Origin: Steroidobacter denitrificans
GTDB taxonomy: Bacteria; Pseudomonadota; Gammaproteobacteria; Steroidobacterales; Steroidobacteraceae
Direction of reading: 5' to 3'
Length of the DNA stretch: 64,000 nt
Assembly: GCF_001579945.1 (NCBI RefSeq)
Contig: NZ_CP011971.1
Coordinates: forward strand, 2,726,030 to 2,790,029
Position numbers and translations under genes: made by a program. The notes under the pieces are model-generated. The model ran no database searches. It had not been told where the DNA came from and saw nothing but the letters and a program-made list of their open reading frames with translations. This document shows, one piece after another, positions 2,417 through 48,117 of this stretch (position 1 is its first letter; every line of letters starts with the position of its first letter).

Positions 2417-5079
2417 CAGAGCTTCTTGGACAAGTTGATGTAACCGAAGCGCTGCCGGATATCGCCCTGCGACGAATCGAAGCCAAAAGAGCTACCGATT
2501 TCTGAAAAACGCGGTTCCTCATCGAACAGATTCGACACGCCGAGCGTCAGCTTCAAACCACGCAACCATCGGGAACCGGCCATGTCGTAGGCATCCGAAT
2601 CCCACGTCACCTGCGCATCGAATAATGTTTGCGACGCCACTCTGCGGTCCAGGCGCCCAAGGTAGGTCGCATCGTCATATGAGTCGGTGTATCGCGCCGA
2701 GGTCGATACGCTCAGGCCGCGCCTGCTCCAGCCCAGCGTGGCCACGGCGCTCCATTCAGGAATGGTTCCCTCTACATCCGCCACCCCCACCCGATCGAGC
2801 GGCGCGGTATCCGGAACGTCGACCGTTTCGTATTTCTTGACCCAGGTCGCCGACAGACTGGCGCTCCATTGGCCGGCCGCAGTGTCAAAAACATGGCTGA
2901 CCCCGAAATCGATACCGCGGGTATCCAAGAGTCCAAAGTTGATATCAGACATATCCACACTCAGGACGCGTCCAGGCAGACCCAGTGCCGCATCGGCGGG
3001 AGAAGGATCGTCCCGGACCACTCTACCCGGGAAACGCGCCTCGTTGGCCAGCACGAGTTCCGGCAGAAAAACTTCCACCCGCTTTTTCAGCTTGATCCGC
3101 CAATAGGAACCTGTCAGGCGCAATCCCGGCTGGCCCTGAGGCGTAAATACGAAACCCACGGTGGAGGATTCGCCTTCCACCGGGTCGAGATCCGGGTTGC
3201 CCGCGAGGATCGCCGTGGCCTCCGTGACTTCGCCGTTGCGACGGGGGTCGACGATCACGTACGGGAAGGTGTCGCGGCTCGAATAGAGCCTGAGAAGCTC
3301 CGGCGGACGGAAGCTGGTGCCGTGCGAGATGCGCAACAGGAGACTCTCGACCGGGGTCCACATCAGGCCGAACTGCGGGTTGAAGGTATCGCCGAAATCG
3401 CTGTAGTGATCCTGCCGGCCCGCAAACTGCAGCGACAGCCCGTGCACGCCGGGGATCTGCATGGCGCCATCGATCAGCGGCAGGCCAACCTCCGCGAACA
3501 CGGCCGAGGCTCTGCGATCCACGGGATGACCGATGAAATCACCGGAGAGAATCTCTTCCTCGCGCCACTCGGCGCCGACGACTACCTGCACGGCGCCTGC
3601 CGGCAGCGTCAGGGCGGCGCCACGCGCAAAGGCCGCCACCTGTGTGCCGTCCGAACCGTAGTCGCTGACCGTGGGCACGGCCATGAGCGATGACAATAAG
3701 GCGGCGCTGCCTGCCGGTCCATCCGCGAACACGTTCAGCGCCTGCGCCGGATCCGACGCTGCCAGCGCCTGCGCCACGCGCGCGGGATCGAGTGCGTTAC
3801 GGGTCCATGACGAACCCTCCTCCTGAGTGTTCAGCAGCGACACCTCCCACTCCCATCCGCCGAGCCAGCCCCGCGCCCCGCCGACGCCGCGCCACAGCTC
3901 CGCCTCACTCATGATGTGTCGAGAACTCATGCCTGCGAAGCGATAGTCCACCGCGACATCGATTCCAAAGGGATTGAAGGGATTGATCGCGGGCACGACA
4001 GCCCCCGATAGTCGCGCCGGGCTGAGCTCGAGGTCGCTGCGCCGGTCGTTGTACAGCAGCTCTGCGAACAACTTCGCGTGCGGCGAAATCTCCAGCTCCG
4101 CGAACGCCGCCACGCTATAGCGTTCGGCTTCGGGAAGGATGGCCTCGTACTTCAACAGGCTGTCCATCCGCCGTTCGCCCGCCGTGGCCTGGAAGTCCGC
4201 CGGCGTCAGGCCGATGCCGCTGCCGCCCTGCGGCACCGCCGCAAAGGGCGAGGGCAGCCCCGGCAGATTCTCACCCGTCAGGGAGCGCACATTGCCGGGA
4301 TTAGTGTTGGGCACGCGATAATTTTCGCCGCCGAAACGCCGAAAATCCTGATCGCGGATACGGGTGCGCTCCGCACCCGGCAGTGCTCCCTTTTCAAAGG
4401 CGTCGAACACCAGTACGGCGTGCCCGCGGCTTCCCGACCAGCCGGTGGTGAGCGAGGCGCGCCGCTCGCGCGCACCGCCCTGGGCAGTACCATAATGCAG
4501 ATCGGCAACCGTGCCGGATACGTCCTGTTTAAGGATGATATTGACCACGCCGCCGACGGCATCGGCGCCATACACGGCGGAGGCGGCATCGGAAAGCACT
4601 TCCACGCGTTCCACGGCGGCCAGCGGGATCGTGTTCAGGTCGAAGGCATTCTGCGCCACCACGCCTGCCGAGGGCACGACGCGCCGGCCGTTGATCAGGA
4701 CCAGGGTCATGTCCGCACCCAGGCCTCTCAGCGACACCACCTGCGAACCGTTTACTGCGAAAACCTCCGAATGAACATACGGCTGCTGCGAGGTGAATCT
4801 CAGCAACTCCGACACCGAACTGACGCCCAGGCTGTCGATTTTTCCCCGGTCGAGCACGATCACCGGTGAAGGCCCCTCCAACGTGTCGGTTTTCAAACGC
4901 GACCCCGTGACCACGATTTCTTCCACCCGGACGATTCGCGGCACCGATGCCGTATCTTGCATCGAGGGTTCCGCCGACGTGTCGGCCTGGGCAGCCACAC
5001 CGACACTGAGTCCCAGTACGATACCCGCCATACCTGACCACGCACCTGCCTTTGGCATCGATCTCATTATTTTCCCCAT
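2416..5079 (-). CDS. TonB-dependent outer-membrane receptor (paired with isopeptidase)
   Basis: An 887-aa outer-membrane active transporter. After a signal peptide (about residues 1-33) comes a TonB-box/plug start (VEEIVVTGSRL), the plug domain with VLINGRRV and SAVYGADAVGGVVNIIL, and a long 22-strand barrel with typical motifs such as ISHGTSFRPPELLRLY and GVSNLFDEEPRFS. Length is normal for the family. It is the first gene of a two-gene unit with the downstream isopeptidase-like peptidase (stop/start overlap TGATG). The pairing suggests import of a peptide such as a lasso peptide, but the ligand cannot be read from the sequence. No FecI/FecR regulator pair is seen next to it, although the window ends just past the peptidase. 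Confidence 0.93.
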   Translation of the reverse strand: MGKIMRSMPKAGAWSGMAGIVLGLSVGVAAQADTSAEPSMQDTASVPRIVRVEEIVVTGSRLKTDTLEGPSPVIVLDRGKIDSLGVSSVSELLRFTSQQPYVHSEVFAVNGSQVVSLRGLGADMTLVLINGRRVVPSAGVVAQNAFDLNTIPLAAVERVEVLSDAASAVYGADAVGGVVNIILKQDVSGTVADLHYGTAQGGARERRASLTTGWSGSRGHAVLVFDAFEKGALPGAERTRIRDQDFRRFGGENYRVPNTNPGNVRSLTGENLPGLPSPFAAVPQGGSGIGLTPADFQATAGERRMDSLLKYEAILPEAERYSVAAFAELEISPHAKLFAELLYNDRRSDLELSPARLSGAVVPAINPFNPFGIDVAVDYRFAGMSSRHIMSEAELWRGVGGARGWLGGWEWEVSLLNTQEEGSSWTRNALDPARVAQALAASDPAQALNVFADGPAGSAALLSSLMAVPTVSDYGSDGTQVAAFARGAALTLPAGAVQVVVGAEWREEEILSGDFIGHPVDRRASAVFAEVGLPLIDGAMQIPGVHGLSLQFAGRQDHYSDFGDTFNPQFGLMWTPVESLLLRISHGTSFRPPELLRLYSSRDTFPYVIVDPRRNGEVTEATAILAGNPDLDPVEGESSTVGFVFTPQGQPGLRLTGSYWRIKLKKRVEVFLPELVLANEARFPGRVVRDDPSPADAALGLPGRVLSVDMSDINFGLLDTRGIDFGVSHVFDTAAGQWSASLSATWVKKYETVDVPDTAPLDRVGVADVEGTIPEWSAVATLGWSRRGLSVSTSARYTDSYDDATYLGRLDRRVASQTLFDAQVTWDSDAYDMAGSRWLRGLKLTLGVSNLFDEEPRFSEIGSSFGFDSSQGDIRQRFGYINLSKKL

Positions 5080-5609
5080 GGATTTTTCAGTAAAATACGA
5101 ACTCGCGCTCCGCCGGATGTTTCCGGCGCCGGGAACACAGGGACGCGACTCCTAGCTCCCGGCGATCACCGGCCGGCGCAATGCGACATCACTACAAGGA
5201 AGCATTCGGAACTGACAACAAACTAAGGCGCTTATCAGCATTAATCCTTAATAAGGATTTTATATATCGCGTCTTCACTTCCCTGGCTTGTCCTGGTTTG
5301 TTACGACTTATCCCGGCATCGACATTCGACGTCCGATTGCAAGACCGGACGACCCTGGGATGTCATCCCCCCGGCCCGCCGCCATGACATGCCCTTGCCC
5401 AACCGCTCGAGCCTCCGAGCGTCAACCGTGTTTTGCCGAGCAGCCGGCCAGACACGATAGCGCACCTCGTATCCATCGCTCATCGTATTGAATAAACTTG
5501 TATTATGCCCGTCCCCTCTAAATGCGCCTCTCTAAGTCATGGCGACGCTCGTCGACGAATGTTTGCCTCATTCACCAGGTTCGAGCGGAATCCAAAAGGA
5601 AAGCGCTGG
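5080..5609. other. 530-bp divergent intergenic region between two receptor genes
   Basis: Control region between two divergently transcribed TonB-receptor genes. It contains an AT-rich island around 5200-5275 in otherwise GC-rich DNA, with an odd-centred palindrome at 5243-5259. Short ORFs in all frames lack ribosome-binding sites and family features, and none looks like a lasso precursor (leader plus a core starting with Gly and carrying an acidic residue at position 7-9). Promoters for both receptor genes are expected here but cannot be assigned with confidence. Confidence 0.6.
5243..5259. promoter_or_regulatory. 17-bp palindrome, candidate operator
   Basis: AATCCTTA-A-TAAGGATT is a perfect 8-bp inverted repeat around one central base, inside the AT-rich part of the divergent promoter region. 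Its size and position fit a dimeric repressor site acting on one or both receptor genes. The binding protein is unknown. Confidence 0.4.
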
Positions 5610-8546
5610 ATGAAAAGAGCGATTCGAGCCGATTATCGAGTGGCAATGACCGCACTGTGCGCCGCTTTGGACGGCGTACTGGGTGTCGCCGAAGCACAGA
5701 CTGCTGAGGATCAGAGTGTCGAGGTCGTGATCGTGACCGGCTCGCGCATCCAGCAAAACGAGTTCGACGCGCCGACGCCGACGATCTCCCTGTCGTCGGC
5801 AGCCATCGAGCTGTCCGGGACGACCAATCTCACCGATCTGCTGAGAAGCCGGCCGGCCCTGGTCGGCTCGAAGGACTCGACGCAGACCACCAACGACTTC
5901 ATCGGCAGCAATGGCCTGAATCTACTCAACCTGCGCAACCTAGGCAAAGATCGGACCCTGGTTCTGGTGGACGGCCGCCGCCACGTAGCGCAGCTGCCGG
6001 AGACTGCCGCGGTGGACATCAATACGATTCCCGCGGACCTGGTCGAGCGCATCGACATCGTGACCGGCGGCGTGTCGGCGATCTATGGCGCCGACGCCGT
6101 GTCCGGTGTCGTCAACTTCGTGATGCGCAAGAATTTCGAGGGCCTCGTCGGCCGGCTGCAGTATGGCAGCGCCGACGCCGGCAACCCCGGCGATCTGCAG
6201 GCCAGCCTGACCGGCGGCTTCAACTTCGCGAACGGCCGCGGCAATCTTTCGGGTTCGATTCAGCACACCCGCGAAGGGCGTCTGAGAGCCTCGGATCGAA
6301 GCTATCTTCGCGGCGCCAATTACACCACCATGCGGCGCAACCCGGATGATTTTCCCGACGACCCCAACGTCCCGGACCAGATTCCAACCAATGATCTGCG
6401 CTACGACAGCAGCTCGCGCGAGGGCGCCATCGATATCGATATCGATGAGGAAGACGAAGGCAGGTACATTGCCGATCTGCGGCCTGACGGCACGGCCTAC
6501 GATCTCGGTGTATTCATTCCTCCATACTTTGCACAAGGCGGCACCGGCACGCCGGTGGCCGATTACATCGGTGATCTGCGCTCCAAGAACGAGAACACCA
6601 TCGGCAGCCTGTTTCTGAACTTCGAGCTCAACCCGTCGGTCAATCTGTTCGCGGAAACCAAGTTTGCCCGCGGCACGGCCGTCGGCTTCTATCAGCCGAC
6701 CTATGATTTCGATTTGTTCTTCACACCCGACAATCCCTACATCTCGCCGGCGCTTGCCGCACAGATCCAACCGGAAGGCTTCTTTGTCACTCGGGACAAC
6801 TTCGATCTCGGCGTTCGCGGTGAGGACAATACCCGCGAAACCATCCGAACCGTACTGGGCATCAACGGCGGTTTCCTGGACGGCTACAGCTACGAAGTGT
6901 CATACGTGTACGGGCAGACGGAGATCGACTCCCTGGCGATCAACAATCGCTACAACGACCGGTTCTTCGCGGCGATCGACGTGGTGGCCGATCCGCTGAG
7001 CGGTGCGCCGACCTGCCGTTCGAATCTCGACCCCTCGGCGCTGCCGGACGATCCGATCTTCCATTTGCCGGAACTGTCCTTCACTCCCGGACCGAACAGC
7101 GGCTGTCTGCCCTTGAATATTCTCGGCGAAGGCGTCGCCACTGCGGCGGCGATCGATTGGGTGATGCTCAACAACCGGACGCGCTCCAGGATCACACAGA
7201 ACGTGTTCACCGCCTTTGCCGCCGGCCCGCTCCCCGGCATCACCCTGCCCGCGGGTGCGATCGATACGGTGGCGGGCATGGAATGGCGGCGCGAGACCAG
7301 CCGCTCCACGCCTCCCTGGGAGGATCAGGCCGGCCTGACCTTCGGCAACGTGATACTGCCCAGCGACGGCAGCTTCGATGTCAAGGAAGCCTTCGTCGAA
7401 CTGCGCGCACCCATCCTGAAGGATCTGGCGTACACGGAACTGCTGCAGCTCTCCGGCGCGGCGCGTGTTTCCGACTATTCCACGGTCGGCAACACGGTCA
7501 CCTGGAATCTGGGCGCCTTGTGGGCTCCCGTTCGCGATATTTCGTTTCGCGCCACCGTCTCGGAGTCGGTCCGCGCGCCCAATATCGGCGAACTTTTCGG
7601 CCCGCAAAGCCAGACATATGAGGGGATCGACGATCCCTGCGGCATGAGCCAGCTCAACAACGGCACCTCCTACCGGACGGCCAACTGCAGCGCCATGCTC
7701 AATGCCCTGAGCATCGACCCCATCGGCTACGATGATCCGAATCCCGGCGACAGTATCCCCGGACTCAGCCAGGGCAATGCCGCGCTGAGCGAGGAAACCG
7801 CCAGAAGCTATACCTTCGGCACGGTGCTGCGGCCCCGGTTCGCGCCGGGTCTGGCCCTGGCCATCGATTACTACGACATCAACATCAAGAACGCGATAAG
7901 CACCGCGACAGCGCAGGTGATCGCGAATACCTGTGTCGACCAGCCCTCGATCGATAACGTGTTCTGCGATGCGCTGAGGCGCAACGCGACCACCGGCGCC
8001 ATCGAGTCGTTCATCGTGCAGCCGGAGAACGTCGCCTCCTACCGCACCCGCGGCATCGACTTCAACGTAAGCTACCTGCTCGATCCAGCCCTTCTCGGCG
8101 TGGACTCCTATATCGGATCATTCGGGATTTCGCTGCTGGGCAGCCGGCTGGAGCGGCTCACGACCATCCCCACGCTCGGCGCGGACCAGATCGACGAGCG
8201 CACCACCGCGTATGCGCCCAAACTGCAGACCAGCCTGGACCTGACCTGGTACTTCCATGGATTCACGGCCTTCTACGGCTATGATCATTTCAGCAAGACG
8301 TCGCGCTATGATTTGCTCACACGAGCCGGCAATCCCGATATCGCCTCGTCGAAAAACATCGACTACGATGCCTACGACATGCACACGCTGAGCCTGGCAT
8401 TCGACTTCAAAGGCGGCTACCGGCTATATGCGGGGGTGCGCAACCTGACCGACGAGCGTCCTGATTATTCACTGAATTATCCGGTCAGTGCAGTGGGTCG
8501 CTTCTACTACGGCGGATTCAAGATGAGTCTTGGTGCTGCGCCCTAG
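5610..8546 (+). CDS. TonB-dependent outer-membrane receptor
   Basis: Outer-membrane transporter of 978 aa from the chosen ATG, which is preceded by AAAGGA about 9 nt upstream and followed by a signal-peptide-like stretch ending near AEAQ. An in-frame ATG at 5562 has no such site. The TonB-box/plug start is VEVVIVTGSRI; the plug carries VLVDGRRH and SAIYGADAVSGVVNFVMRK. The barrel contains SESVRAPNIGELFGPQ and GVRNLTDERPDYS. It belongs to the large receptor type used by oligotrophic Gammaproteobacteria for complex organic substrates; the ligand is unknown. It is divergent from the receptor/isopeptidase pair, and the two receptors are clearly different proteins rather than a recent duplication. 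Confidence 0.93.
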   Translation: MKRAIRADYRVAMTALCAALDGVLGVAEAQTAEDQSVEVVIVTGSRIQQNEFDAPTPTISLSSAAIELSGTTNLTDLLRSRPALVGSKDSTQTTNDFIGSNGLNLLNLRNLGKDRTLVLVDGRRHVAQLPETAAVDINTIPADLVERIDIVTGGVSAIYGADAVSGVVNFVMRKNFEGLVGRLQYGSADAGNPGDLQASLTGGFNFANGRGNLSGSIQHTREGRLRASDRSYLRGANYTTMRRNPDDFPDDPNVPDQIPTNDLRYDSSSREGAIDIDIDEEDEGRYIADLRPDGTAYDLGVFIPPYFAQGGTGTPVADYIGDLRSKNENTIGSLFLNFELNPSVNLFAETKFARGTAVGFYQPTYDFDLFFTPDNPYISPALAAQIQPEGFFVTRDNFDLGVRGEDNTRETIRTVLGINGGFLDGYSYEVSYVYGQTEIDSLAINNRYNDRFFAAIDVVADPLSGAPTCRSNLDPSALPDDPIFHLPELSFTPGPNSGCLPLNILGEGVATAAAIDWVMLNNRTRSRITQNVFTAFAAGPLPGITLPAGAIDTVAGMEWRRETSRSTPPWEDQAGLTFGNVILPSDGSFDVKEAFVELRAPILKDLAYTELLQLSGAARVSDYSTVGNTVTWNLGALWAPVRDISFRATVSESVRAPNIGELFGPQSQTYEGIDDPCGMSQLNNGTSYRTANCSAMLNALSIDPIGYDDPNPGDSIPGLSQGNAALSEETARSYTFGTVLRPRFAPGLALAIDYYDINIKNAISTATAQVIANTCVDQPSIDNVFCDALRRNATTGAIESFIVQPENVASYRTRGIDFNVSYLLDPALLGVDSYIGSFGISLLGSRLERLTTIPTLGADQIDERTTAYAPKLQTSLDLTWYFHGFTAFYGYDHFSKTSRYDLLTRAGNPDIASSKNIDYDAYDMHTLSLAFDFKGGYRLYAGVRNLTDERPDYSLNYPVSAVGRFYYGGFKMSLGAAP

Positions 8547-43387: not shown

Positions 43388-43416
43388 TTGACATATGCGC
43401 CGTCCATGTCAATCAT
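43388..43416 (+). promoter_or_regulatory. Sigma70-like promoter for the riboswitch transcript
   Basis: TTGACA at 43388-43393 is a perfect -35 box; a 17-bp spacer leads to AATCAT at 43411-43416 (4 of 6 matches to TATAAT). The predicted start near 43422-43424 coincides with the first bases of the c-di-GMP aptamer, which supports the assignment. Confidence 0.65.
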
Positions 43417-43420
43417 GACA

Positions 43421-43513
43421 TCGTCAAACAATGGGCAAACTCGCCGAAAGGCGGGGACGCAAAGCTTCCGGTCTACAGGAATCATTCCCAGGACAGCGGG
43501 GTTGCCGCGGAGC
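43421..43513 (+). promoter_or_regulatory. Cyclic-di-GMP-I (GEMM-I) riboswitch aptamer
   Basis: The sequence matches the class I c-di-GMP riboswitch block by block: GGGCAAAC at 43433-43440, a CGCC-GAAA-GGCG hairpin with the GNRA tetraloop, GGGACGCAAAGC, TCCGGTCTAC, a short variable stem (GGAATCATTCC), then GGACAGCGGGGTTGCCG as the 3' strand with the tetraloop receptor. Order and spacing agree with the Vibrio Vc2 aptamer as known from the family. It lies on the plus strand, directly after a promoter and about 225 bp before the SPOR-like gene, with the glucan synthase further on. It should sense c-di-GMP and switch expression of these genes; ON or OFF cannot be told from sequence. Confidence 0.93.
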
Positions 43514-43532
43514 CGCGAACATTGATTCGCGG
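43513..43532 (+). promoter_or_regulatory. Stem-loop after the aptamer, candidate expression platform
   Basis: CCGCGAA-CATTGA-TTCGCGG forms a 7-bp perfect stem directly after the aptamer. GGTTGCCG, part of the aptamer's 3' strand (43500-43507), recurs at 43531-43538, so the two copies could compete for pairing. No U-tract follows, arguing against a simple intrinsic terminator. Confidence 0.45.
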
Positions 43533-43737
43533 TTGCCGACTCGCCATCGATCAGCGGTGAATACCGGCCGATCGATCCAGAATCCAAGCGAGACGGACCG
43601 TGCAAAGCGACATCCTCCCCGAATGAATTCCCCGCGGGCATTGCGTCGAGCGTCGGCCGCCGGCGAGTTTTACTCGCTCGTGACCGCAGTGCCGGCCCTG
43701 AAACAGGCGTCATGGGATCCGTGACCGGGGAACGAGC
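43533..43737 (+). other. Riboswitch leader, untranslated
   Basis: About 200 nt between the aptamer and the GTG start of the SPOR-like gene. It includes a small hairpin GCGAGT-TTT-ACTCGC at 43665-43679. Short ORFs in the leader have no protein-family features. Confidence 0.5.
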
Positions 43738-45045
43738 GTGGCCGACAACACCAGCAAAGTCTTCCAAGCGCCGGCGGTCGAGACCGCCGGTTTCCAGACG
43801 GTGACGCATGGCGACGCCGACACCGGGGCAACGCTGTTCGTCATCAATTTATGCGCCTCCATCGCTCCGATCTCGACCGACGGCCGCAATCTTCCAGGCC
43901 TGGAGAACTACCGGCTCTATCGAGTTTCACGCCTGGAGGACGGCCGTACCCGCCATCGCCTGCGCCTGGGTTTTTTTTCCAGCGAAGCACACGCCGAGAA
44001 TGTGCTCGCCCTGGTTCGCCAGCAATACCCGACGGCCTTCACCGCCTGCCTGCACGAGGAAGACCGCAAATTCGCCCGAGGCTACCTGGCGCCGGCCGGC
44101 CGCGAAACAGTCGTGAAACCCAGGCCGGCGGCGGCACCCGTTGCCGCACCGACGGCCGGGGAGCGACCGGCGCGCCAAGCACCGGCGGAGCTCGTGGTCA
44201 CGCCGCTGCAAGCCGCCGGTATCCGGCCCGCCACGACACGTCCCATGCGCCGCTCGCCTCCGCAACTCGATACCACCCAAACGATCCGTGCATTGACGCG
44301 CGCGGAACTCGAAGATGAAGGACTGGAAAAGTGGTTTGCCATCCAGTTGGCCGCTTCCGAGCAACCGGTCAATCTCGACACCATGCCGCATCTCGACATC
44401 TTCGACGCCTATCGGCTGTACTCGGTGGCCTCGATGAATGCCGGCAAGATCGTGCACTCGCTGCGGCTCGGTTTTTTCAAGGAGGATATTTCGGCCGAAG
44501 CGGTCGGCGGCTATCTCAAGACATTTTTCTCGACACCGACGGTTCTGCGCGTGAGCGAAGCCGAGTACACCCGGTTCAAGGCTCCTCCGGAGCAGACACG
44601 GCCGGCGGCGAGCGCGGACATCGTCACGCTCACTCCGGCTCGCGCGCCTCGAGCCGACATCCCGACGATAACGCTGGCCGTGCCCACGCCGGACTTCGCC
44701 CCCCTGGCAACCGGCGCATTCGAATCGCGGACCGGCGACCGACAGACCGTCGAGCAACTCGATGCCGCAACCACGGGCAGTTTCAAATCCGGTATCAGCG
44801 CCTCGACCCTGGCGCAGCTTGCATCACGGCACGAGCCCAAGGCCATTGTGTCTGCGCGGCAGCGTCCGACACCCTCGCGCAACAGGACAGGCATGACGGG
44901 CAAGCACAAGGCCCTGGCGCCACGCAGCTTGTCGGAGCAACTGCTGGAAGAAGCTCGTGCCGTCGCACTGTCCGAAAGCGGTATTCGTGAAATTCCCAAG
45001 AACGGCTCGCTGTTTTCGCGTCTGGTCGGCAAGCTGACACGTTGA
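43738..45045 (+). CDS. Two-repeat SPOR-like protein
   Basis: A 435-aa protein starting at GTG. It holds two copies of a SPOR-like unit: about 31-108 (LFVINLCAS, NYRLYRVSRLEDGRTRHRLRLGFF) and about 199-276 (WFAIQLAAS, AYRLYSVASMNAGKIVHSLRLGFF). SPOR domains bind denuded peptidoglycan glycans, but no signal peptide or membrane segment is visible, so a cytoplasmic role is possible. The rest is Ala/Pro/Thr-rich linker with a conserved-looking basic C-terminus (LSEQLLEEARAVALSESGIREIPKNGSLFSRLVGKL). It is the first gene under the c-di-GMP riboswitch and lies before the glucan-synthase gene. A T8 run at 43971-43978 in repeat 1 is a potential slippage site. Exact function unknown. Confidence 0.85.
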   Translation: MADNTSKVFQAPAVETAGFQTVTHGDADTGATLFVINLCASIAPISTDGRNLPGLENYRLYRVSRLEDGRTRHRLRLGFFSSEAHAENVLALVRQQYPTAFTACLHEEDRKFARGYLAPAGRETVVKPRPAAAPVAAPTAGERPARQAPAELVVTPLQAAGIRPATTRPMRRSPPQLDTTQTIRALTRAELEDEGLEKWFAIQLAASEQPVNLDTMPHLDIFDAYRLYSVASMNAGKIVHSLRLGFFKEDISAEAVGGYLKTFFSTPTVLRVSEAEYTRFKAPPEQTRPAASADIVTLTPARAPRADIPTITLAVPTPDFAPLATGAFESRTGDRQTVEQLDAATTGSFKSGISASTLAQLASRHEPKAIVSARQRPTPSRNRTGMTGKHKALAPRSLSEQLLEEARAVALSESGIREIPKNGSLFSRLVGKLTR

Positions 45046-45387
45046 CACCGGGCCATCACGACGCTCGGCGCCTCCCGACAGCACAGCGGCACGCTGAAAT
45101 CCTATCGCCGCACCCAGCGACGCTGCGTACTGCGCCAAGACATCCGACTTGGTGCGCTCCACCAGGACGTCTTGAGTTAACATGTCGCCCGGACCGCCCG
45201 CCGGAATCAACCCTTCCCGGCAATACGCAGCCATCCTGACGGCTCGCCGTGGACTCAGCCGTGATTCTCATCCGACGAAGTGTCTTCCATCATCATCCTG
45301 CATCCAGTGACCCTGCGCGGCAGCCTGATTGCGGATCATGATATCGGCTCGGGCAAGCGGCCTGCGGCGTTCGCGCCAGCCTGAATC
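45046..45387 (+). other. 342-bp gap between SPOR-like and glucan-synthase genes
   Basis: Same-strand gap with no convincing ORF. The main structure is a hairpin at 45136-45174. No second riboswitch consensus is recognised. The gap is long enough for a separate promoter of the synthase gene, but none is clear. Confidence 0.5.
45136..45174 (+). promoter_or_regulatory. Extended stem-loop in the SPOR/glucan-synthase gap
   Basis: CAAGACATCC pairs with GGACGTCTTG (9 of 10 positions) and encloses a second helix TGGTG-CGCTC-CACCA, with a 4-nt GACT bulge on one side. About 15 paired bases follow the SPOR-like gene by 90 bp. No U-tract follows, so it could be an attenuator, an mRNA-stability element or a processing site. 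Confidence 0.5.
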
Positions 45388-48030
45388 ATGAAAGATTCCG
45401 GCATCGCCGTGGCGTTGGTTTTCGCCATACTCACGTTCGGACTGTGGGCCTACATGAACCGTCCCGCCGCTGAGCCGCCCTGGCCGGCCCGCGTGCAGGG
45501 CATGGCCTTCTCGCCGTTCCACGCCGACCAGGATCCGGCCTATCGCAGACTACCCGACAGAACGCAGATCGAGGCGGATCTGCAGCTGCTGTCCGGCAAG
45601 GTCGCCGCGCTGCGCATCTATTCCTCGCTGTACAGCCTGGCGGAAGTGCCGCAGCTCGCCGCACATCACGGCATCAAGATCACGGTCGGCGCCTGGCTGG
45701 ATACTCGGCGGCACAGCAATGAAGCGGAAATCCACGGAGCCATCCGCCTGGCGCAGGACAATGACAATGTCACCCACGTCATCGTCGGCAACGAAGTCCT
45801 GCATCGTGGCGATCTGACGCTCGCCGAGCTGGTGCAGCACATCGACCGAGTCCGGGAAGCGGTGCAACAGCCGGTCAGCACTGCCGAGCCGGCCCATGTC
45901 TGGCTGAGGAACCCCGAACTGGCGCAGCACGTGGATTTCGTCACCGTGCACCTGCTGCCTTACTGGGAAGGCATCGGTGTCGAACAGGCGAACGATTTCA
46001 TTGCCGGCACGATGCGACAGCTGCAAGCGGCTTTTCCCGACAAGCTCATCGTCATCGGAGAGGTGGGTTGGCCTTCCGACGGGCGCACCCGCGGTCAGGC
46101 GATCGCCTCGGTCAGTCACGAAGCGCTGTTTCTGCGCCGCTTTCTGCGCCTGGCACGTGATGCAGGCTATGTCTACTATCTGATGGAAGCCTTCGATCAG
46201 CCGTGGAAGGCGCGCTTCGAAGGCGCAGTCGGCGCCTACTGGGGCGTGTACGATGTACATCGTCGGCCGAAATTCGAATTCGTCGCTCCCATCGTGCGCG
46301 TACAGCGTTGGCAGTTGCTCGCCGTCATTTCGGTGGCGCTCGCCGCCCTCCTGCTGGGACAGCTCTATATGCACAGTACGGCGCTGCGCATCCGCGGACG
46401 CGGCCTGCTGGCGATGGTGGTCTATGCGGCAGCCACCGCCGCGGTATGGATCATCTACGACTACTCGCAGCGATACCTGAGTTTCGGCGGCATCATCATC
46501 GGCGCCTTGCTGATCCTGTGCATGCTCGCCGTGATCGCACTGCTGCTGACCGAAGCACACGAATGGGCCGAGGCGCACTGGGCCACCACCCGGCGGCGGC
46601 GTTTCACCGTCTCTTCGGTACCCTCACGACATTGGCCGAAAGTTTCCATTCACGTACCGGCCTACAATGAACCGGTACCGATGTTGATCGAGACGCTGAA
46701 CGCGCTCGCCGCGCTAGACTATCCGGACTTCGAGGTCATTCTGGTCGACAACAACACGGCCGATGAAGCCGTGTGGCGGCCTTTGGAGGCGCATTGCCGG
46801 CTCCTCGGTCCGCGCTTTCGCTTTTTCCATGCCGCACCGCTGGCCGGCTTCAAGGCCGGCGCATTGAACTACGCGCTGCGCCGCACGGCTGCGGACGCCG
46901 ACATCATCGCCGTGATCGACAGCGACTATCGCGTCGATACGCGCTGGCTGTGCGACCTGGTGCCGGGCTTCGATGATCCGAAGGTCGCGATCGTACAGGC
47001 ACCGCAGGATTATCGGGACAGCGGCGCCAGCTTGTTCAAGGCGATGTGCTACGCCGAGTATCGCGGTTTTTTTCACATCGGCATGGTGACCCGCAATGAG
47101 CGCAACGCCATCATCCAGCATGGCACCATGACCTTGGTTCGCCGCGCGGCCCTGGAACAGGCAGACGGATGGGCTCAGTGGTGCATCACGGAGGATGCCG
47201 AATTAGGCCTGCGCTTGTTCGCCCTAGGTCATGAAGCCTGCTATCTGGTGCATAGCTACGGCCGCGGTCTGATGCCGGACAGCTTCGCCGACTATAGAAA
47301 ACAGCGCTTCCGCTGGGCCTACGGCGCCGTGCAGATCCTGCGCATACATGCCGCTGCCTTGTTCTCCGGCACACGTTCACGGCTGACACGCGGCCAGCGT
47401 TATCATTTCATCGCCGGCTGGCTGCCCTGGCTCGCCGACGGTCTCAATCTGATCTTCACCCTGGCGGCTTTGTGCTGGTCGGCGGCAATGATTCTGTGGC
47501 CCAATCGCATCGATCCGCCGCCGATCATGTTCTCGGCGCTGCCGCTGGTCCTGTTCACGTTCAAGCTGCTGAAACTTGCCCACCTGTATACTTCGCGCAT
47601 CGGCACGAACGTGCGCCAGACGTTCGCCGCGGCAATGGCGGGACTGAGTCTGTCGCACACCATCGGCAAGGCGGTGATCAAGGCTCTGTTCACCCGCGAC
47701 GAACCTTTTTTTCGTACGCCCAAGCATGGCACGCGGCATGTGCTGGCTCGCGCCGTTACAGATGCCCGGCAGGAAATGCTGATACTGGCGGCACTATTGC
47801 TGGCGGTCCTGGGTCTGACTCATCGGTTCGCAATTGCACCCGGACTTGTGATCGGCCTGCCGCGGGAGTTGAAGGGAACCGACGTCTCGGTCTGGATCGC
47901 GGTCCTGCTGATCCAGGCGGTTCCCTATGCCGCCGCCTTGCTGATGTCGATCATCGACGCCTTGCCGCTGCCGGCAAAATGGCTCGGCGATCCGGCCCGT
48001 CCCCTGCCCGACCTGCGGCCCGACCCATAG
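45388..48030 (+). CDS. NdvB-like membrane beta-glucan synthase (GH17 + GT2)
   Basis: An 880-aa membrane protein with a signal-anchor helix (about 6-24), a GH17-like glucosidase/transglycosylase domain (about 36-300) with acid Glu in VGNEVLHRGD and nucleophile Glu in IGEVGWPSDG, TM helices near 310-385, then a processive GT2 domain: VHVPAYNE-type motif HVPAYNEP, DSDYRVD (DxD), TEDAEL and QRFRW (QxxRW). More TM helices lie toward the C-terminus. Pseudomonas aeruginosa NdvB (PA1163) has the same plan and size and makes cyclic beta-1,3-glucans tied to biofilm tolerance. It lies second after the c-di-GMP riboswitch, fitting a biofilm polymer. Confidence 0.92.
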   Translation: MKDSGIAVALVFAILTFGLWAYMNRPAAEPPWPARVQGMAFSPFHADQDPAYRRLPDRTQIEADLQLLSGKVAALRIYSSLYSLAEVPQLAAHHGIKITVGAWLDTRRHSNEAEIHGAIRLAQDNDNVTHVIVGNEVLHRGDLTLAELVQHIDRVREAVQQPVSTAEPAHVWLRNPELAQHVDFVTVHLLPYWEGIGVEQANDFIAGTMRQLQAAFPDKLIVIGEVGWPSDGRTRGQAIASVSHEALFLRRFLRLARDAGYVYYLMEAFDQPWKARFEGAVGAYWGVYDVHRRPKFEFVAPIVRVQRWQLLAVISVALAALLLGQLYMHSTALRIRGRGLLAMVVYAAATAAVWIIYDYSQRYLSFGGIIIGALLILCMLAVIALLLTEAHEWAEAHWATTRRRRFTVSSVPSRHWPKVSIHVPAYNEPVPMLIETLNALAALDYPDFEVILVDNNTADEAVWRPLEAHCRLLGPRFRFFHAAPLAGFKAGALNYALRRTAADADIIAVIDSDYRVDTRWLCDLVPGFDDPKVAIVQAPQDYRDSGASLFKAMCYAEYRGFFHIGMVTRNERNAIIQHGTMTLVRRAALEQADGWAQWCITEDAELGLRLFALGHEACYLVHSYGRGLMPDSFADYRKQRFRWAYGAVQILRIHAAALFSGTRSRLTRGQRYHFIAGWLPWLADGLNLIFTLAALCWSAAMILWPNRIDPPPIMFSALPLVLFTFKLLKLAHLYTSRIGTNVRQTFAAAMAGLSLSHTIGKAVIKALFTRDEPFFRTPKHGTRHVLARAVTDARQEMLILAALLLAVLGLTHRFAIAPGLVIGLPRELKGTDVSVWIAVLLIQAVPYAAALLMSIIDALPLPAKWLGDPARPLPDLRPDP

Positions 48031-48043
48031 CAGATCGGAATCC

Positions 48044-48117
48044 AGCCCGCCCATGGCGCTTGCTTCGTCATGCATTTCGATTTGAATGCATGACGAAGCA
48101 AGCGCCATGGGCGGGCT
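48044..48117. repeat. Perfect 33-bp inverted repeat after the glucan-synthase gene
   Basis: 48044-48076 is exactly complementary to 48085-48117 around an 8-nt loop (TCGATTTG). Arms start AGCCCGCCCATGGCGCTTGC. It begins 14 bp after the synthase stop. This is far longer than a normal terminator stem and has no U-tract (TATAACCC follows). It could end or stabilise the riboswitch-controlled mRNA, be a small non-coding mobile unit, or be a recent inverted duplication or assembly artefact. Confidence 0.9.

Follow-up and report, generated by a model that had tools for sequence, protein, structure and literature searches.

In this report, we focus on a locus of Steroidobacter denitrificans in which a cyclic di-GMP class I (c-di-GMP-I) riboswitch precedes two genes on the plus strand: the first encodes a protein with two SPOR-like domains, and the second, which lies 342 nucleotides (nt) further on the same strand, encodes a membrane glucan synthase of the NdvB type. 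The locus is part of a stretch of 64,000 nt that was analysed as a whole and that we will call the window; its features are collected in Table 1. The sequence-only reading of this DNA had recognised the conserved GEMM-I blocks in order on the plus strand, and the check that it proposed, an Infernal search with the Rfam c-di-GMP-I model (RF01051), bears this out. The match covers positions 1-87 of the 87 of the model, scores 78.5 bits where the gathering score is 35, and is the sole Rfam match in the whole window (cmscan, gathering thresholds). The two downstream genes are present as well. Pfam SPOR (PF05036) matches the first domain of the first protein with 22.9 bits for a cut-off of 21, and the second protein carries a GT2 domain (100.3 bits) preceded by an N-terminal GH17-like region that scores 27.3 bits, just under the cut-off of 28.2.

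Table 1. Features of the riboswitch locus, with their positions in the window and the basis on which they are placed.
Feature	Position	Strand	Basis or remark
Sigma-70-like promoter TTGACA-17-AATCAT	43388..43416	+	7 nt before the aptamer; consensus match only
c-di-GMP-I riboswitch aptamer (RF01051)	43424..43509	+	78.5 bits, E 9.4e-14; covariation among 70 aptamers
CGGGG in the 3' strand of the aptamer, proposed competitor for CCCCG of the anti-Shine-Dalgarno segment	43497..43501	+	Sequence; the competition would follow by inference
Proposed anti-Shine-Dalgarno segment TTCCCCG	43628..43634	+	Fold of the window leader; UCCCC enrichment in homologous leaders
Shine-Dalgarno CGGGGAA before GTG 43738	43726..43732	+	Sequence
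SPOR-like protein, 435 residues, SPOR-like domains at about 33-108 and 199-281	43738..45045	+	Pfam, alignment, models
Nine-base element GTTAACATG	45176..45184	+	Upstream of NdvB in relatives too; only copy in the window on either strand
NdvB/'Orphan'-type GH17+GT2 membrane glucan synthase, 880 residues	45388..48030	+	GT2, GH17-like region; no PilZ motif

We will first examine the aptamer itself. Covariation was measured over 70 aptamers of SPOR-like loci (69 from relatives and that of the window; 69 distinct), in an alignment that was fitted to the covariance model. In this alignment, 98.5% of the cells are paired, and 54 cells are doubly changed against 9.7 in shuffled alignments, none of the 500 shuffles reaching as high a value; slid controls gave 1-15 such cells. 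Because an aptamer with this covariation recurs 5' of the SPOR-like gene in relatives, the one of the window stands far beyond chance. Judged on its sequence, the RNA at 43424-43509 is thus a genuine c-di-GMP-I riboswitch, for which binding of the ligand is predicted. The candidate promoter just upstream (TTGACA at 43388-43393, a 17-nt spacer, AATCAT at 43411-43416) matches 10 of 12 consensus positions, in a scanned region where two promoter-like sites were found for 1.3 expected. Of 16 loci inspected, the window among them, 15 carry TTGAC at a comparable position, and the mean best promoter score over 71 loci is 8.57, against 7.09 in single-base shuffles.

The gene that this riboswitch serves can be read from the relatives. 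RF01051 is present in 122 of the 150 sampled genomes of the family Steroidobacteraceae and in 24 of 25 genus groups, and the SPOR-like protein is present in 87 of these 150 genomes. Loci were examined in 79 of the 87, the window's own genome included (the others being G026, G029, G039, G048, G055, G056, G059 and G081), which gave 85 relative loci; they were searched with a covariance model built from 35 family aptamers, some of which come from the tested SPOR loci themselves. An aptamer was found at 70 of the 85 relative loci, one of them weak (34.9 bits). It thus lies directly 5' of the SPOR-like gene in 70 of 79 genomes, window included, spread over 17 genus groups, two of the relative loci sharing one genome; if G029 is counted, whose SPOR locus (L266) has no aptamer, the figure becomes 70 of 80. 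No aptamer was found at the other 15 loci (L158, L165, L181, L182, L184, L187, L189, L194, L196, L205, L220, L238, L239, L240 and L241), some of which sit at the end of a contig or represent a second SPOR gene, and nine genomes have none at any examined SPOR locus (G002, G010, G031, G043, G061, G082, G097, G116 and G137). In all 70 relative loci, as in the window, a SPOR-like frame follows the aptamer on the same strand; that of L198 was recognised by eye, and the weak aptamer match of L211 overlaps the gene. From these sequences, the SPOR-like gene is a conserved target of the riboswitch, and the pairing is widespread in the family.

The neighbourhood of the pair also has a bearing on its ligand. 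GGDEF and/or EAL signatures (both in 27) mark a gene that lies 5' of the aptamer, on the same strand and within 4.5 kilobases (kb), in 28 of the 70 relative loci, and in 13 of these 28 it ends 101-133 nt before the aptamer; the seven such genes checked by Pfam all carry both domains. The count excluded the window, and none of the 28 loci is from its genus. Examples of GGDEF-EAL genes that immediately or almost immediately precede the unit in other genera are found at L210 (3030-5999, minus strand) and L225 (1-2766, plus strand). Outside the family, the SPOR-like profile was searched against samples of the order (196 genomes) and of the class (274 genomes), each of which includes some family genomes, and matches were obtained in 31 outside genomes. 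The 1.5-kb flanks of SPOR-like loci from 22 of these 31 genomes contained no aptamer, in a scan in which 4 of 8 family loci were positive, and in 7 of the 8 loci read among the 22 the SPOR-like domain lies within a long protein. By eye, these long proteins (L267, L268, L274, L276, L277, L279 and L287) resemble exported proteins with TPR and a beta-barrel. No close relative of the SPOR-like protein was found in a collection of genome contigs.

The SPOR assignment of the protein deserves some detail. The second domain of the window protein has no Pfam SPOR match, and Pfam SPOR matches 29 of 37 homologues at E<=0.01. Common to these 37 are a motif of FVINLCAS type in the first unit, GFF in each of the two units and a conserved segment at the C terminus. 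AlphaFold2 models the whole protein as two SPOR-like units with very-low-confidence stretches between them (mean predicted local distance difference test score, pLDDT, of 48.7), and the second unit modelled alone reaches a mean pLDDT of 66.5. With these low-confidence models, the two best Foldseek hits in the PDB for the whole protein, and the four best for the second domain, are SPOR domains (CwlC, RlpA, DedD), at E-values of 0.002-0.025; the next hit for the whole protein, the third, is to a non-SPOR structure. The predicted secondary elements fit the order beta-alpha-beta-beta-alpha-beta, on models of mean pLDDT 48.7 and 66.5 and with E-values of 0.002 or more, and a profile search of PDB sequences with the family gave no match. 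A hydropathy scan, which is not a signal-peptide predictor, revealed neither a signal nor a membrane segment in the protein of the window. Among the 37 SPOR-like proteins, the 19-residue hydropathy has a maximum of 1.98 and a median of 1.29, with 4 of 37 above 1.6, for a value of 3.3 in the NdvB control. The protein is thus probably cytosolic, as far as its sequence tells. Known SPOR proteins bind periplasmic glycan; as no signal or membrane segment is seen here, a role on that glycan is unsupported, and so is the cell-wall glycan binding that had been proposed for this protein.

The leaders that connect the aptamer to the gene suggest how the control may operate. They measure 27-261 nt, with a median of about 102 over 70 leaders, and 228 nt in the window. 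The tests below were made on 68 of them, omitting L211, where the weak aptamer runs into the gene, and the two shortest (L202 and L210). In 47 of the 68, a ribosome-binding site GGGGA is found no more than 20 nt from the start, and its complement, UCCCC, occurs in 34 of 68, for 12.6 in 300 dinucleotide shuffle sets (standard deviation 2.9, maximum 23). This is particularly true for the window's genus, with UCCCC in 13 of 14 leaders for 2.2 in shuffles; the control UGGGG is not enriched (2 for 3.5). In the window, folding 43620-43745 to minimum energy brings 43628-43633 into a helix with 43727-43732, which covers the ribosome-binding site. Over the 68 leaders, enforcing the aptamer takes the accessibility of the ribosome-binding site from 0.364 to 0.307 (26 leaders lower and 6 higher), and in the window from 0.32 to 0.16; five sets of shuffled leaders change by -0.001 to +0.013. 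Since enforcing the aptamer closes the site in real and not in shuffled leaders, and since UCCCC is in excess, we read these leaders as OFF switches: from sequence and folding, they look like switches acting on translation. The binding of c-di-GMP would close the aptamer, the leader segment 43628-43634 would then be free to pair with the ribosome-binding site at 43726-43732, and, with this site paired, translation of the SPOR-like gene would fall.

We will now turn to the NdvB-type gene. Its product has the motifs GFK(A/G)G, FFRTPK and QxPQ, lacks the PilZ motif DxSxxG, and is closest, among the named isolates of a public genome collection, to proteins of Steroidobacter, Peristeroidobacter and Povalibacter (66-67% identity in the best segment). 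NdvB-like matches at E<=1e-30 exist in 67 of the 150 family genomes, and conserved adjacency of the riboswitch, the SPOR-like gene and NdvB on one strand was not found in relatives. Nine of 13 congeners carry both genes on a single contig and strand, at a distance of 5-10 kb; three have them on different contigs, and G085 has no NdvB match. Genes of the opposite strand separate the two in all five congener loci read (L153, L009, L243, L010 and L149). At L153, Pfam identifies these opposite-strand genes as a CrtC-type lipocalin protein, an FtsX/MacB permease, an ABC ATPase and an outer-membrane beta-barrel protein; the two interval genes tested by Pfam at L243 agree with this, and at L149 the lipocalin protein and the permease are seen by eye, together with further genes on both strands. 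In the window genome, searched without a positive control, the permease gives merely two 24-bit matches and no real one, and the CrtC-type lipocalin protein, likewise searched without a positive control, gives none. As neither has a real match, the intervening block has most likely been lost from this genome, and the adjacency of SPOR-like gene and NdvB in the window most likely arose by loss of this block of mostly opposite-strand genes.

The region just upstream of NdvB has features of its own. The element GTTAACATG stands 53-100 nt 5' of NdvB in 7 of the 76 NdvB loci tested, all seven from the window's genus, for a background of 0.0014 per 300 nt; L031 is one base off. In the four of these seven that were read, NdvB lies on one side of it and the divergent beta-barrel gene on the other. 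Among 80 relatives, no credible sense aptamer was found 5' of NdvB in an upstream flank that ranged from none (L033, L054 and L068) to 7 kb. Since the riboswitch of congeners lies at or beyond the edge of this flank, the counts of gene distances and the reading of gene order are also needed. The one sense match, at L007, is at chance level (16 bits, E 0.44), and L075 alone has a clear match, on the strand opposite to NdvB. This aptamer of L075 (5362-5456, minus strand) belongs to a Desulfopila record. NdvB is probably still driven in the main by a promoter region of its own just upstream, and any influence of the riboswitch would be confined to read-through transcripts. The sequence-only reading had placed the riboswitch at the head of the whole locus; this is supported for the SPOR-like gene and unsupported for NdvB, which is unlinked in congeners and has its own element. 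Direct control of NdvB as a conserved design was rejected in view of the 5-10 kb separation, the opposite-strand genes, the want of credible sense aptamers in the upstream flanks of 0-7 kb and the NdvB gene's own GTTAACATG element.

Taken as a whole, we consider it likely that the c-di-GMP-I riboswitch serves the SPOR-like gene as a translational OFF switch, and that NdvB stands next to it through gene loss and is driven mainly by its own promoter. Several results weigh against this reading. A test of anti-Shine-Dalgarno pairing by duplex energy is weak (mean z -0.73, 13 of 68 leaders at p<=0.05), and the longest contiguous complement is 5.46 for 4.99, with 4 of 68 at p<=0.05 and a p of 0.19 in the window, where the best-energy duplex of the ribosome-binding site differs from the proposed one (p 0.835). 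Leaders that have GGGGA show just a slight excess of UCCCC (26 of 47) over those that lack it (8 of 21). Leaders do not pair with the aptamer's 3' strand beyond the level of shuffled sequences (2 of 68 at p<=0.05), which leaves the exact competitor as a proposal. Moreover, the fold of 43620-43745 is not better than those of its shuffled versions (z -0.93), 36 of the 68 leaders shift by 0.05 or less when the aptamer is enforced, and the leaders are related sequences whose counts are not independent. As for NdvB, the block comprises four genes, and its loss is deduced from searches for two of them that had no positive control.

Other explanations of the same data have to be considered. One could first question the ligand. 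The GGG before CAAA is intact at 43433-43435 (model positions 10-12), and G occupies positions 11 and 12 in all 35 aligned aptamers. We take position 20 of the Vibrio cholerae RNA to map onto this GGG and, given this mapping, guanine is present at the specificity position, as expected for c-di-GMP rather than cyclic GMP-AMP (cGAMP). A preference for 3',3'-cGAMP, as in the Geobacter branch of RF01051, was considered unlikely on account of this intact GGG. It is true that, according to PMC7288161, the family covers binders of both ligands, with the Geobacter structure 4YAZ, and a G20A mutant is able to bind cGAMP; however, the intact GGG, the invariant guanines and the GGDEF-EAL neighbours of relatives all point to c-di-GMP, and we hold such a preference to be very improbable. 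The sign and the level of the control are less settled. Riboswitches can be on or off switches that act on termination or on ribosome access (PMC6366702), the latter being described as a general mode (PMC6366702 and PMC7288161). An ON switch, or transcription termination (intrinsic or by Rho) in place of translational control, could accommodate the long leader of the window and the terminator-like site that it contains at 43651-43665, in a scanned region with three such sites for 3.9 expected by shuffling. However, UUUU occurs in just 9 of 70 leaders, which disfavours intrinsic termination, and the enforced aptamer closes the ribosome-binding site more often than it opens it; we thus regard this alternative as unlikely.

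The riboswitch could also control a SPOR-NdvB operon and couple c-di-GMP directly to beta-glucan synthesis. This would fit the close spacing of the two genes on one strand, the fact that no terminator-like site is listed between 45046 and 45387, and the missing PilZ motif of NdvB, a gap that control at the RNA level would fill. Against it stand the lack of a credible sense aptamer 5' of NdvB in the flanks of the 80 relatives, the opposite-strand genes of the five congener loci, the retained element GTTAACATG, and at least ten family genomes, some of them incomplete, that have the aptamer and the SPOR-like gene and no NdvB at E<=1e-30 (G001, G004, G005, G007, G009, G011, G016, G018, G022 and G085). 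We therefore find an operon of this kind unlikely. A bolder picture combines these elements: the cytosolic SPOR-like family would be a dedicated output of c-di-GMP in Steroidobacteraceae, repressed by the riboswitch and, in many genera, set beside its own GGDEF-EAL gene, and in the lineage of the window a deletion would have put the cyclic-glucan synthase behind it, so that read-through would bring glucan synthesis under c-di-GMP control at the RNA level in an emerging operon. We offer it as a speculation with little probability on its side. The preferred reading, that of an OFF switch for the SPOR-like gene, names a conserved c-di-GMP output gene in Steroidobacteraceae, with a predicted sign (repression), a mechanism and the exact bases. 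It also illustrates that the gene order of a single genome can hint at a regulatory link, here with NdvB, that relatives do not support.

The genome, a single contig of 3.47 Mb, has five RF01051 matches above the cut-off, and other aptamers and features were observed besides those of the main locus. At L146 (6413-6498 and 6634-6720, minus strand; genome C1:3170912-3171219), tandem c-di-GMP-I aptamers precede a gene whose product, of 653 residues, is lipoprotein-like and has He_PIG (Ig-like) repeats as well as one fibronectin III domain. L147 has a c-di-GMP-I aptamer (4344-4434, plus strand) 5' of an M23 peptidase gene (4704-5624), followed by a gene that is secA-like by eye. A weaker aptamer of 40.9 bits at L148 (4731-4825, plus strand) lies 5' of a gene for a secreted-looking protein of 365 residues, which adjoins genes named by eye as glycosyltransferase-like. 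In the window, the region between NdvB and a pseudouridine synthase gene has an inverted repeat (48044-48117) whose 33-nt arms match perfectly around a loop of 8 nt, with no T run; a 30-base piece of it is found in 1 of 291 loci, L166, of the same genome.

These observations can finally be compared with what is known. c-di-GMP-I riboswitches and NdvB-type synthases are both already known, and the pairing of the former with the SPOR-like family did not come up among the papers listed by searches of the open literature. The open-access papers found on SPOR domain, c-di-GMP and diguanylate treat other subjects by their title and the start of their abstract, and no open-access paper was found that joins a c-di-GMP riboswitch with ndvB. 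The RNA of the window is like known c-di-GMP-I riboswitches in its full-length model match, its conserved core and its position in a 5' leader. According to PMC6366702, such riboswitches are known before motility, chemotaxis and adherence genes, whereas the product of the conserved target here has two SPOR-like domains and, as far as is seen, no export signal. This protein resembles known SPOR proteins (PF05036; CwlC, RlpA, DedD, DamX) in its Pfam matches and best Foldseek hits. It differs from them in having no signal or membrane segment, when known SPOR proteins bind periplasmic glycan (the matched structure 6i09 is RlpA with denuded glycan), and its family combines two SPOR-like domains, a linker and a conserved C-terminal segment. 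As for the synthase, the NdvB/'Orphan' GH17-GT2 cyclic beta-glucan synthases of pseudomonads, as portrayed in PMC10237404, have the same order of a GH17-like region then GT2, the same GT2 motifs and likewise no PilZ motif. The window protein differs in a GH17 score just below the Pfam cut-off, and its gene stands directly behind a SPOR gene headed by a riboswitch, unlike in the nine congeners that have both genes on one contig.

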